Shown: positions 45,527-49,575 of the stretch, one piece after another
Layout of the letters: every line of letters starts with the position of its first letter
How positions within the stretch are numbered: position 1 is the first letter of the stretch
Assembly: GCA_023150845.1 (NCBI GenBank)
Contig: JAKLKD010000070.1
Span: 1 to 63,260 of the forward strand
Origin: Myxococcota bacterium
Lineage (GTDB): Bacteria > Myxococcota_A > UBA796 > CAJQPC01
Reading direction: 5' to 3'
DNA length: 63,260 nt
Notes under the pieces: generated by a model
What the model was told of the DNA's origin: nothing
The model's database searches: none
What the model saw: the letters and a program-made list of their open reading frames with translations, nothing else
Program-made: the position numbers and the translations under genes

Positions 45527-46021
45527 ATGCGAGTGATCGGCCCCCTCTTCGCCGTCTTGGCCTTGGGCCTCGTGACCTGGTACCTCTGGCTCAACCGCCT
45601 GCCGCCCTTCGACGCCCTGCCGGAGCCTGTGCCCGTCACCATCCAGTCCGTCACGATGGAGCATGACGGCGTGCGCATCGAGGGCACGGCCCACTTCCCG
45701 GTGCGTATCCGCTACGTCGAGCCCGCGCGTCTGGGCCGCCCCGAGCAGACCCGCTACCTCTTCCCGCTGCTCCCGCTGCGCGACACCATGAGCCGCCGGG
45801 TGCGGGTCATCATCTCCTCCGCCCGTGAGCCCGAGCACCTCGTCTCCTACGCCGACCTCACCATCGACGGCTTCGCCCGGCCCGGCGGCGCCTTCTTGAA
45901 CGGCCCGGCCATCGACGCCCTCCGCCGCGCTGGCTACACCCTAGAGGACGACCTGATCGTGATCGAGGAGTACCCGCCGCCCGCCGGTCGCCCGATGGAG
46001 GCCGCCCCCGCGGCGCCGTGA
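45527..46021 (+). CDS. Small membrane-anchored protein, function unknown
   Basis: The 164-aa product has one N-terminal transmembrane segment (VIGPLFAVLALGLVTWYLWL) followed by an extracytoplasmic domain of about 135 residues. No known domain is recognised. ATG 45527 has GGAG eight bases upstream; an upstream GTG at 45491 in the same frame lacks one. The AlkB-like gene starts inside its stop codon (GTGA overlap), so the two are coupled. Confidence 0.78.
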   Translation: MRVIGPLFAVLALGLVTWYLWLNRLPPFDALPEPVPVTIQSVTMEHDGVRIEGTAHFPVRIRYVEPARLGRPEQTRYLFPLLPLRDTMSRRVRVIISSAREPEHLVSYADLTIDGFARPGGAFLNGPAIDALRRAGYTLEDDLIVIEEYPPPAGRPMEAAPAAP

Positions 46022-46578
46022 CGCCCCCCGGCTACGCCCTCACCCCGGGCTTCTTGAGCGAGGCCGAGGCCGACGCGCTCCTGGCCAGCTTGCTCTACGA
46101 GACCCCTTGGGAGCGCCACGTCTTTCGGCTCTACGGGCGGGCCCTGCCGATGCCCCGGCAGATCGCCTGGGTCGGTGAGCGGCCCTACGCCTACTCCGGC
46201 CTCGTCCACCCGCCCGCGCCTTGGCCGCCGAGCTTGGCCGCGCTCCTGCCCCGGCTCCAGGCGGCCTGCGGCCAGCCCTTCAACGGCGCGCTGCTGAACC
46301 GCTACGACGGCGGACAAGACAGCATGGGCTGGCACACCGACGACGACCACGCGCCCTTGGCCTTGGGCGGCCTCGCCTCCTTGAGCCTCGGCGCCACCCG
46401 CCGCCTGCTCGTGCGCCCCCGAGGCGGCGGCCCCTCCACACCCATCGAGCTCCCCCACGGCAGCCTCCTGTGGATGAGCCCCGAGAGCCAGCAGCACACC
46501 CAGCACGCCTTGCCCAAGACCGCGCGGCCGGTGGGGGTGCGGGTGAACGTGACCTGGCGGTGGGTGGGGGAGGGTTAG
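46018..46578 (+). CDS. AlkB-like Fe(II)/2-oxoglutarate dioxygenase
   Basis: The 186-aa enzyme matches the AlkB/ALKBH family, which oxidatively removes alkyl lesions from DNA or RNA. Visible are NRYDGGQDSMGWHTDDD with iron ligands His106 and Asp108, the third ligand His163 (TQHALPKT), and RVNVTWR (175-181), where the arginines bind 2-oxoglutarate. The GTG start overlaps the previous gene by 4 bp. The stop overlaps the stop of the convergent gene at 46575. Repair of alkylated nucleic acid is the likely role, though lipid or protein targets occur in the family. Confidence 0.92.
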   Translation: MTPPGYALTPGFLSEAEADALLASLLYETPWERHVFRLYGRALPMPRQIAWVGERPYAYSGLVHPPAPWPPSLAALLPRLQAACGQPFNGALLNRYDGGQDSMGWHTDDDHAPLALGGLASLSLGATRRLLVRPRGGGPSTPIELPHGSLLWMSPESQQHTQHALPKTARPVGVRVNVTWRWVGEG

Positions 46579-48920
46579 AAGGGGATGTCTTCGTCGTCGG
46601 GTAGGGGACCAGTGGGTACAGAGCGGCCGTAGCCGCCGAACGGGCGTTGGTGCTTCGTCGGTGGGGCATCGAATCCGCGGAGCGTGCGCCACTTCTCGCT
46701 GAGGATTGGGTGCTCAAAGCTCAACCGGCGCTCACGCTCGACGAGCCACCCTTGCTCGATGAGCTCAGAGAGCGCCGTCCGCACGAGCAAGGTCGTGCGT
46801 CCCTCTTCCAGCAGAGCACTCGTGACCTCCCCCCATGACATCCCATCGTCGTGCTTGGACAGCGCATCAAGCGCCTCGCGGCGGACGTTGAGGAGTGGGT
46901 CATCTTGCCAACTTGCCTCCAACAGTGGCTCAAGCATCTTCGAGCGCGCCTGGAGCGTGGTCGGGTCTCCTCGCTTCGCCACTAACCTGAGCACGACGTC
47001 GGGGATGCCCTCTGGGTTGTTCAGCTCTGGATTGATGCGAATCTCGTTCACAAGTTGATGCACGAGGTTCGGGATCCCGGCGCTGCTCGTTGTGATCGCG
47101 AGCACGAGCTCGTTGACGCGGGAGGCGCCAACACCCTCCAGCAGACGAGTAGCTAAGGTTTGTGCGTCGTTAGCGCTTAGAGGCGGCACAGCGACTGTAT
47201 GCAGATGAGCCCACCAATCTGCTGCTGCTGCGTCTTGGTCTGAGATGTCATCTGGTGAGCCCAGCGCGACCACGAACCGAAGGCGCTCGCGTTGGATGAG
47301 CGTCGACGTAATATGGCGCAGCGCGGCACCTCTCTGAGGTTGGTCGAGCGCCACTATATGGTCAAGCAGGACGATGAACCCCGCCTCCGGGATCGGCTCC
47401 TCCAAAAGCCCTGTGAGCCAGCGCCTAAGCTGGTCCTCTGTGACCCCACGCAGGTCCAGCTTCTCCCGCCGCTCCCCCGCGACGGGCACCTCCAGCCCGT
47501 TCATCACAGACGACACCCCGCGCCCCTTCGGGCCGAGCAGGCACACGCTGCGGTGCTCTAGCTCGGCGTTGATCTGGGCGATGAGCTTCTCTCGCCCGAC
47601 GAGCTCCGAGGCTGGCGCTGGGCGGCCCACGCGCAGGGGCAGCGCCCGCTGCTGTGCCTGTGGTCGGTGCGCGGGGTGAATCGGCAGCACCACCTCAAAG
47701 TAAGTGCGGGTGTCCTCCTCAAAGTTAAACTTGGGTGGCGGGTTCCCGTTCTTCTCCATGGCGCGGCGGATCTTCTTGATGCCGCTTCGGCGGGCCTCGG
47801 CGAGCTTGGCGAGCTTGAGGAGCTCGCCGACGCGACGGTTTCTCGCTACGACCGGCGGGAGGTCGCCCGTCTCTAAGTCTTTGAGCGCGAGTCCAGGCGG
47901 GGGGCCGGGGTAGCTCGTGATGGTCATGCGGTCGGGGTACAGCTCGATCTTGATGGGGTCTGCGTAGACCGGGTCATAACCCCGGTGGTGAACAGCGTTT
48001 ACGACGGCCTCCTCCACGGCGGCGAATGGCCAAGCGACGTCCCGGTCAGCCTCGGCGCGGTCGTCGTGTTTCTGCACGCGGGTCGTGTTCAGGCTCTTGA
48101 GGATCTCCAAGGCTTGGGAGAGCAAGAACGGCAGGTTGCCGCGCAGCGTCTTCTCAGAGAGCTTGTCGCCGTCGTCATTCACCTGCACGATCTCGATTTG
48201 GGCGCCGTGGAAACGGTGCTGGGGCTCGGTGGTGAAGAACAGCACGGCGGCGTTCAGCGGGGACTCATGCCCGTTCACGCGCTGAAGCAGGCTCTCGTCA
48301 CGCAGCCGCTGCTCGACGCTCTTGTCTTCATCAAGGCTGAGGCCCGCTTGGTACAAGTACGAGTTCAGCAGGTCCGGGTTGATCGCGCTCGCGGTCAGGT
48401 CACGGCAGGGTTGCGCGTCAAATGGCACCCGCTGACTGACCTCCTCAAGCTGTCGCAGAAGCTCCCCTTTGGCGAGCTTGGTCTCGGCGCCGACACGGAC
48501 GTAGGGCGCCCCCGTCGTGCCTCTCTCAAGGCGGTCGGGAACAGCGTAGGGGCGGTTTGGTCCAGCCTGACAGCGGATCACCAGCACATCGCGGCCATCC
48601 ACTTGATCCGTGAAGATCCCAGGCACATAGTCGGGGGTCACCCATCTGCTGATGTGGCCGAGAATCTCTTTCTGGATGAGCTCCAGCTCTTCGGTGCGTA
48701 GGCCGATCGGAGGCAAGACGGCCTTGCCACCCTCCTCAGCGACGCCCAACACGATGTAGCCGCCGTTCTGGTTGTGCAGGTCGTTCGCGAACGCGCAGAC
48801 CGTCTTGAGGATCGCGCCCTTGGTGCGCTCATCCCAGCCGACCTTAAATTCAAGCCGGAACGACTCGACGCGGTTGTCTTTGAGGAGCTGCTCTGCGGAC
48901 AGGAGCGAAGGGAGGTGCAT
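46575..48920 (-). CDS. AlbA-HATPase-P-loop protein with SSB-like C-terminal tip
   Basis: The 781-aa protein has an N-terminal Schlafen/AlbA_2-type DNA-binding domain (about 17-155: ESFRLEFKVGW, AFANDLHNQNGGYIVLGV), then a GHKL-type HATPase region of the RecG-like AlbA family (about 295-345: AAVEEAVVNAVHHRGYDP). A P-loop-like segment follows (GPKGRGVSS, about 464-472, with VLLDH as possible Walker B) and a winged-helix-like C-terminal region. It ends in a flexible tail and DDEDIPF. That tip matches the acidic C-terminus of single-stranded DNA-binding protein (DDDIPF), which recruits repair enzymes. ATG 48920 (GTG 48923 also possible) lies a few bases after the ImuA-like gene, so both sit under one SOS-type promoter. 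Base composition is less GC-rich than neighbours, suggesting acquisition. Confidence 0.85.
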   Translation of the reverse strand: MHLPSLLSAEQLLKDNRVESFRLEFKVGWDERTKGAILKTVCAFANDLHNQNGGYIVLGVAEEGGKAVLPPIGLRTEELELIQKEILGHISRWVTPDYVPGIFTDQVDGRDVLVIRCQAGPNRPYAVPDRLERGTTGAPYVRVGAETKLAKGELLRQLEEVSQRVPFDAQPCRDLTASAINPDLLNSYLYQAGLSLDEDKSVEQRLRDESLLQRVNGHESPLNAAVLFFTTEPQHRFHGAQIEIVQVNDDGDKLSEKTLRGNLPFLLSQALEILKSLNTTRVQKHDDRAEADRDVAWPFAAVEEAVVNAVHHRGYDPVYADPIKIELYPDRMTITSYPGPPPGLALKDLETGDLPPVVARNRRVGELLKLAKLAEARRSGIKKIRRAMEKNGNPPPKFNFEEDTRTYFEVVLPIHPAHRPQAQQRALPLRVGRPAPASELVGREKLIAQINAELEHRSVCLLGPKGRGVSSVMNGLEVPVAGERREKLDLRGVTEDQLRRWLTGLLEEPIPEAGFIVLLDHIVALDQPQRGAALRHITSTLIQRERLRFVVALGSPDDISDQDAAAADWWAHLHTVAVPPLSANDAQTLATRLLEGVGASRVNELVLAITTSSAGIPNLVHQLVNEIRINPELNNPEGIPDVVLRLVAKRGDPTTLQARSKMLEPLLEASWQDDPLLNVRREALDALSKHDDGMSWGEVTSALLEEGRTTLLVRTALSELIEQGWLVERERRLSFEHPILSEKWRTLRGFDAPPTKHQRPFGGYGRSVPTGPLPDDEDIPF

Positions 48921-48929
48921 CACCCAAGG

Positions 48930-49550
48930 TTATCCCAGATCGCCCCCCACCTCCAGCCGCCGCCCTTGGGCGTCGCCTTGGGCACGGCGCAGGAGCACGG
49001 AGAGGCGATCGCCGCGGCGGCCGAGGGCCTGGGCCCGCAGGCTCGCCGGGAGGTGGAGGTCAACAGACTCGTTGACGATGAACAAGGCGCACTCGCCGCG
49101 CTCGGCGGCGCGCTCCAGCCGCGCCCCGGCTTTGCCCAGGCGGGGGGGATCGAGGAGCACGACGAGGGGGAAAGCGCCGGACTGGGCGAGCTGCTCCGTG
49201 GCCCAGGCGGCCTGCTCCGCGGCGGGCTGCAAGAGGAGCAGGCGCTCCCAGCGCAGGCCCACGAGGCCCGGAGGGTAGAGCCGACCCAGCGGATCCACCA
49301 CGGCCACGGGGGTTTCTTGACGTGTCAACAAAGCTGCTGCGGGGGTCCACAGCCCGTTTCGGCCGCTCCCGGGGCGCCCGCTCAGCTCGATGAGCCCCGG
49401 ACGAGGCCAACGCGGCAGATCCTTGAGGCCCGAGGGGAGATCGGCGTGGCGCTCGGGCAGGGTCGCGCCGGTGCTCAGCCGCGGCGCCCCCCGCAGGGAC
49501 GACACGGCGGCCTGGAGCTGGCTGAGCACGACGCGGCGGTCGGGGTCCAT
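48930..49550 (-). CDS. ImuA/RecA-like protein
   Basis: The 206-aa protein resembles ImuA, the RecA-like partner in translesion mutagenesis cassettes: RLSTGATLPERHADLPSGLK, PGLIELSGRPGSGRNG and PLVVLLDPPRLG. The P-loop is degenerate: GRPGSGRN (58-65) lacks the usual Lys and Ser/Thr, so ATP hydrolysis is doubtful, as in some ImuA proteins. imuB and dnaE2, its usual partners, are absent; an AlbA-ATPase gene follows instead. GAGG lies six bases before ATG 49550, and a LexA-type palindrome with sigma70-like promoter lies directly upstream, which supports a DNA-damage role. A SulA-like member of the same superfamily is the alternative. Confidence 0.78.
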   Translation of the reverse strand: MDPDRRVVLSQLQAAVSSLRGAPRLSTGATLPERHADLPSGLKDLPRWPRPGLIELSGRPGSGRNGLWTPAAALLTRQETPVAVVDPLGRLYPPGLVGLRWERLLLLQPAAEQAAWATEQLAQSGAFPLVVLLDPPRLGKAGARLERAAERGECALFIVNESVDLHLPASLRAQALGRRGDRLSVLLRRAQGDAQGRRLEVGGDLG

Positions 49551-49559
49551 CCTGAACCT

Positions 49560-49575
49560 CTGAACGGACGTTCAG
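49560..49575. promoter_or_regulatory. LexA-type SOS operator
   Basis: CTGAAC-GGAC-GTTCAG is a palindrome with perfect 6-bp arms and the GAAC-N4-GTTC core used by Gram-positive LexA. It also agrees at most positions with the Myxococcus LexA box as I remember it. It lies 10 bp upstream of the ImuA-like ATG and over the predicted start site. A third half-site CTGAAC (49552-49557) lies beside it, 8 bp out of register. Confidence 0.8.

Follow-up and report, generated by a model that had tools for sequence, protein, structure and literature searches.

The window, the whole 63,260-nucleotide stretch of DNA that we analysed, carries a reverse-strand gene pair preceded by a LexA-type box. The second gene of the pair encodes a 782-residue protein, referred to here as the ATPase, which ends in an SSB-like tip and converges on a forward-strand AlkB-like gene. 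The features relevant to the present analysis are, by position in the window:

46018–46578, forward strand, AlkB-like 2OG-Fe(II) oxygenase gene, convergent, with a 4-bp overlap with the ATPase stop
46577–46575, reverse strand, stop codon of the ATPase gene
46575–48923, reverse strand, ATPase open reading frame with a GTG start, 782 aa (SLFN_AlbA_2, HATPase_c_4, AAA-like region, probable winged helix, linker and SSB-like tip)
46578–46598, reverse strand, SSB-like tip DDEDIPF, from the translated end of the open reading frame
about 46599–46670, reverse strand, disordered-looking Gly/Pro/Ser/Gln linker, diverged between same-genus orthologues
47004–47636, reverse strand, AAA/STAND-like region, residues ~430–640, with approximate boundaries
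47685–47957, reverse strand, HATPase_c_4 ("RecG C-terminal-like") domain, residues 323–413 (Pfam, E 2.8e-15)
48471–48866, reverse strand, SLFN_AlbA_2 (Schlafen) domain, residues 20–151 (Pfam, E 8.7e-17)
48930–49550, reverse strand, ImuA-like (RecA-like) gene, 206 aa, 6 bp upstream of the ATPase gene
49560–49575, reverse strand, LexA-type SOS box CTGAACGTCCGTTCAG, perfectly palindromic and lying 9 bp upstream of the start codon (ATG) of the ImuA-like gene

Pfam assigns SLFN_AlbA_2 (62.2 bits against a curated cut-off of 25.3) and HATPase_c_4 alone to the ATPase, and does not detect the OB-fold ssDNA-binding core (PF00436) in its 782 residues, the SSB matches of the genome lying at other loci; because no OB-fold was detected, the protein is not considered an SSB. 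The AAA/STAND-like region was delineated from sequence together with a weak match to 8g28, a solved AAA-family ATPase. This region contains a P-loop-like GPKGRGVSS, which lacks the usual lysine and whose core GRGV is invariant in the four homologues described below, and it is followed by a probable winged-helix region that was read from the sequence by eye. PADLOC matches to pAgo/SIR2 models were not read as Argonaute and were set aside as probably reflecting shared AlbA–HATPase sequence. The AlkB-like gene is a neighbour and not clearly a member of the same system; its overlap was rejected as a cause of tip conservation, the 4 bp shared in the window comprising stop codons only.

The initial annotation described the ATPase as ending in PDDEDIPF after a Gly/Pro/Ser tail, and translation of the open reading frame bears this out: the C-terminal sequence is ...FDAPPTKHQRPFGGYGRSVPTGPLPDDEDIPF followed by the stop codon, with 20–30 Gly/Pro/Ser/Gln-rich residues preceding the PDDEDIPF end. 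The interval originally highlighted, 46575–46640, spans the tip and most of this tail. From local amino-acid frequencies, the probability of [DE][DE][IL]PF at a C-terminus is 4e-6 (~0.024 per 6,000 proteins), with still lower expectations per 6,000 proteins for [DE][DE]IPF (~0.0046) and [DE]{4}IPF (~8e-5). Genome-wide C-termini were scanned with a DNA pattern for [DE][DE][IL]PF ends, using the reversed pattern as a control. The 7.13-Mb host genome (G000) and the sister genome G001 gave exactly two matches each, and the control gave zero in either; in both genomes, the matches are the ATPase gene itself and a fragment assigned to SSB.

The assignment of this fragment derives from two split assemblies. 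Specifically, the main host SSB core is found where contig C50 stops, its gene being cut inside a Gly-rich linker, and host contig C337 opens with PPDDMPYSDEDIPF, which bears an SSB-type tip. The SSB core of G001 likewise sits at a contig end, and contig C13 of that genome opens with ...RGGGGRDSAPPDDMPYSDEDIPF, its downstream genes matching those of host C337. Because the split-contig arrangement and the downstream genes agree in the two assemblies, we regard the C337 fragment as the missing SSB end with near certainty; the host SSB tip would accordingly read SDEDIPF, of the same kind as the DDEDIPF of the ATPase; comparison with the host SSB C-terminus, proposed in the initial annotation, thus came out in favour of the likeness. 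In ~35 same-order relatives (a hand count), an SSB core and a [DE][DE][IL]PF end occur at most 1 kb apart on one contig. A second host SSB (contig C2) has no [DE][DE][IL]PF tip.

Full-length homologues of the ATPase number four, counting the host protein, the others being encoded in G001, G352 and G391. The G001 orthologue (JAKLKE010000247.1, Myxococcota bacterium MAG.430), from the same genus, is 79% identical and ends PYSDDDIPF. Between these two proteins, 8 of 23 aligned linker residues are identical (dN about 0.69), whereas the tip is retained, with agreement at 6/6 of its aligned codons. The dN/dS of 0.21 for the whole ATPase gene indicates that it is under purifying selection, and the retention of the tip while the linker diverged is suggestive, being a pattern of six codons only and carrying no formal test. 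The G352 and G391 homologues belong to another class and are 50–52% identical to the host ATPase. The G391 protein (50% identity) ends ...LREQLISGADDIPF, with the tip ADDIPF and almost no linker, and the G352 protein has the same domains as the host ATPase and ends ...AARALNDLRF, in which NDLRF looks, by its position, like a degenerate tip. Homologues with the same domains and no tip had been named in advance as a result that would refute mimicry; the tip is present in three of the four proteins (G000, G001 and G391), G352 alone ending NDLRF, and it is therefore not strictly required.

The G352 end would also suit the view that the tip arose by coincidence in a tail that is acidic and poorly conserved. 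We consider this very improbable, given the ~0.02 such ends expected per genome and a tip that persists beside a diverged linker and in a homologue from another class. Overall, mimicry of the SSB tip by the ATPase is well supported at the level of sequence: the host SSB tip is alike, the tip persists across the divergent linker, and it recurs at 50% identity in another class. A different possibility is that the tip is an internal regulator, with the acidic tail folding onto the nucleic-acid surface of its own or an adjoining subunit until displaced by nucleic acid, as has been proposed for Hfq, which is autoregulated by acidic C-terminal domains (PMC5606850). Self-docking of this kind is conceivable for the phage RadD-like helicases and ERF annealing protein that bear such tips. 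However, the exact I-P-F end is kept in G000, G001 and G391, as in the host SSB, and pure charge mimicry needs no such end; furthermore, the near absence of a linker in the G391 homologue argues against folding back, and internal regulation appears unlikely to us.

The complete architecture is rare among the sequences searched. A phylum-wide profile search with the C-terminal half yielded one true new relative (G352), and weak AAA-type matches from the same search were set aside as not true relatives. Other AlbA–HATPase proteins match the ATPase little outside residues 8–420, and those relatives of this half whose C-termini were examined have different C-terminal regions, none with the tip. 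Searches of viral and plasmid sequences each returned AlbA–HATPase relatives only, with no full-length relative, and none of the viral proteins examined carries the tip. The host also encodes a paralogue of the AlbA–HATPase half (L012; G000:C111:9199-10407), which is 43% identical and has a different C-terminal region without the tip.

The partner gene offers a genomic context for the ATPase. Its product matches NCBIfam NF033429 over residues 31–185 (57 bits, E 2.3e-15), and we call it ImuA-like only because this score is below the curated cut-off of 150 bits. It is the single ImuA-like gene of the host genome, the other two matches of the ImuA model being RecA proteins by sequence. The pair occurs in the same order in G001, where the ImuA-like protein is 93% identical to that of the host. 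Two relatives from the same family (G002 and G003) possess the ImuA-like gene but yielded no hit for the ATPase. Conversely, the ATPase gene of G352 and of G391 is not adjacent to an ImuA-like gene, and no similar LexA-type box was seen close upstream of it. Within the genomes sampled, only this genus has the two genes side by side, and the mutasome link is therefore placed at genus level.

The palindrome CTGAACN4GTTCAG occurs twice in the host genome (0.14 copies expected; control 0). The second copy (C190:7974-7989) lies directly before an ImuB-like gene, followed by a gene for a protein of ~1,060 aa that we named DnaE2-like on the grounds of sequence and position. In G001, the palindrome precedes the same two operons, with the perfect core 9 bp before the ImuA-like ATG, as in the host; a third palindrome in that genome (G001:C827:11221-11236; L180:2222) lies beside genes not obviously linked to repair. 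Both host boxes fit 16 of the 17 positions of the published M. xanthus LexA box, CTRHAMRYBYGTTCAGS (PMC9705874). In the stretches examined near the two host recA genes, no SOS palindrome was found at up to three mismatches. An SOS box common to the ImuA-like/ATPase operon and imuB–dnaE2 is thus well supported by the sequences, and the box suggests that LexA would repress the ImuA-like/ATPase operon until damage occurs. The role during damage that the initial annotation had envisaged gains partial support from the LexA-type box, the operon with the ImuA-like gene and the same box before imuB–dnaE2.

The shared SOS box and the pairing with an ImuA-like gene could also suit a dominant competitor, in which the SOS-induced ATPase titrates SSB partners off SSB, slowing recombination or fork restart and favouring ImuB–DnaE2 synthesis. 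SSB is abundant and tetrameric, and the ATPase, with a single tip on each chain, would be a poor competitor if it neither oligomerises nor is highly expressed; we entertain such competition only tentatively.

We instead favour, as on balance probable, a reading in which the ATPase is induced by the SOS response, assists the mutasome and uses its SSB-like tip to dock on the partners of SSB. A role in damage is proposed because of the tip, the pairing with the ImuA-like gene, the SOS box in common with imuB–dnaE2 and the adjacent AlkB-type gene. Specifically, damage would lift LexA repression of the operon, and everything ahead of the tail (the AlbA/Schlafen and HATPase_c_4 domains, the AAA-like region and the probable winged helix) would act on nucleic acid, with nuclease or ATPase activity of the 782-aa protein being predicted. 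The flexible tail would place its copy of the SSB tip in the SSB-tip pocket of RecO, RecG, PriA, ExoI, primase and similar proteins; this pocket may be accessible to a non-SSB ATPase because the tail ends in such a copy. Docking might take place at ssDNA gaps or stalled forks and would not require the ATPase to be an SSB, so that SSB partners could be brought to the ATPase, or the ATPase to the partners, during translesion synthesis.

As to the activity of the protein body, a profile built from the four homologues can be aligned, albeit weakly (E 0.04), with Schlafen 8/13 (5yd0), and in this alignment E20, E25 and E63 fall on E205, E210 and D248 of SLFN13, the carboxylates of its RNase site (PMC5862951). 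E20 and E25 are invariant in the four homologues, and position 63 is Glu in the host and Asp in G352 and G391. Because the alignment is weak, RNase activity of the ATPase is raised as a possibility and not claimed as proven. One could nevertheless envisage a Schlafen-type effector, whose AlbA domain would cleave tRNA or rRNA and halt translation at severe damage, with the tip coupling it to ssDNA, by analogy with human SLFN11. The alignment of the three glutamates with the catalytic residues of Schlafen 8/13 is consistent with such a role, as is the activation of SLFN11 once RPA runs out and ssDNA becomes exposed (PMC12904793), a parallel that is functional and not evidence of descent. Against it stand the weakness of the alignment and the Glu found here as third carboxylate, and we hold an effector of this type to be possible but doubtful. 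In addition, many AlbA_2–HATPase proteins are thought to be regulators, which also speaks against an effector. Competition, self-regulation and a Schlafen-effector role are not all mutually exclusive. A bolder and rather improbable extension is an SOS-controlled bacterial counterpart of SLFN11, a Schlafen-fold nuclease and SSB-tip mimic that blocks forks or translation when damage exceeds the capacity of the mutasome, with SSB-tip mimicry perhaps forming a general wiring of many non-SSB bacterial and phage proteins.

Compared with known systems, the parts of the ATPase are of known kinds and their combination is, as far as we found, new. The ATPase resembles the SSB C-terminal tip (SSB-Ct, DDDIPF) in its Gly/Pro-rich linker, acidic residues and I-P-F end, which is near-identical to the host SSB tip, but differs from SSB in carrying the tip on a Schlafen/AAA-type protein with no detected OB-fold. 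Bacterial SLFN_AlbA_2 plus HATPase_c_4 proteins, annotated as "RecG-related", "ATP-binding" or "RNA-binding domain-containing" (e.g. 2kyy and 3lmm), are alike over the N-terminal half (~8–420), the nearer ones being 35–43% identical, whereas those examined lack the tip and differ in their C-terminal region; the AAA-like/winged-helix half with a tip is rare. Human SLFN11 is alike in tying a Schlafen domain to ssDNA and replication stress. SLFN11 senses how RPA and ssDNA stand, while the ATPase imitates the SSB tip, and common ancestry of this feature is not claimed. As to the ImuA–ImuB–DnaE2 mutasome, the ATPase is paired with the sole ImuA-like gene and has the SOS box of imuB–dnaE2; we know of no mutasome operon with an AlbA-ATPase, from a search that was not exhaustive. 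SSB organises bacterial genome maintenance via one short tip that is usually ascribed to SSB itself. If the favoured reading is correct, a damage-inducible tip-bearing protein would represent another route to SSB partners without SSB and could give the mutasome a means of steering repair, and a Schlafen domain would be tied to bacterial DNA damage, as in humans.

SSB-like tips were also encountered on other proteins. Viral contigs contain at least 80 loci encoding proteins that end in DDDIPF (L199–L278), and among the matches listed, 16 of the 80 score against an SSB model built from Myxococcota SSBs. Those that are not SSBs (e.g. L218, L231, L234, L241, L261 and L263) include SF2 helicases of RadD-like type and one ERF annealing protein, both recognised by Pfam, accompanied by small unknown proteins, and some of the DDDIPF proteins are likely to be divergent ssDNA-binding proteins. 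As in the ATPase, the helicases and the annealing protein present an SSB-like tip on proteins of DNA metabolism; unlike the ATPase, they have unrelated domains, are phage-borne and show no SOS or ImuA link. This survey suggests that SSB-like tips on non-SSB proteins are common in phage contigs and widespread, and a literature search of incomplete coverage found no description of them.

Several bacterial proteins have comparable ends. PcfJ-like or related proteins end in DDIPF (L087, L109 and L111, with Pfam PcfJ matched for L111 only, below cut-off), and a recurrent small unknown protein ("LVPRDWTGEQAL...VHGEEMA") ends in DDIPF or DEIPF (L086, L095, L096, L098 and L104). A recurrent unknown family ("CRRTLDDAAKSRWHDKERALLAAIEAE"; L088, L093, L100 and L102) has a tail ending in DDDIPF in several relatives. 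Both of these recurrent families were met within the order of the host. Finally, an RRM (RNA-binding) protein of a same-order relative (L090:84-452, reverse strand) has a Gly-rich tail ending in DDDIPF, and Gly-rich C-terminal fragments at L094 and L099 resemble it.
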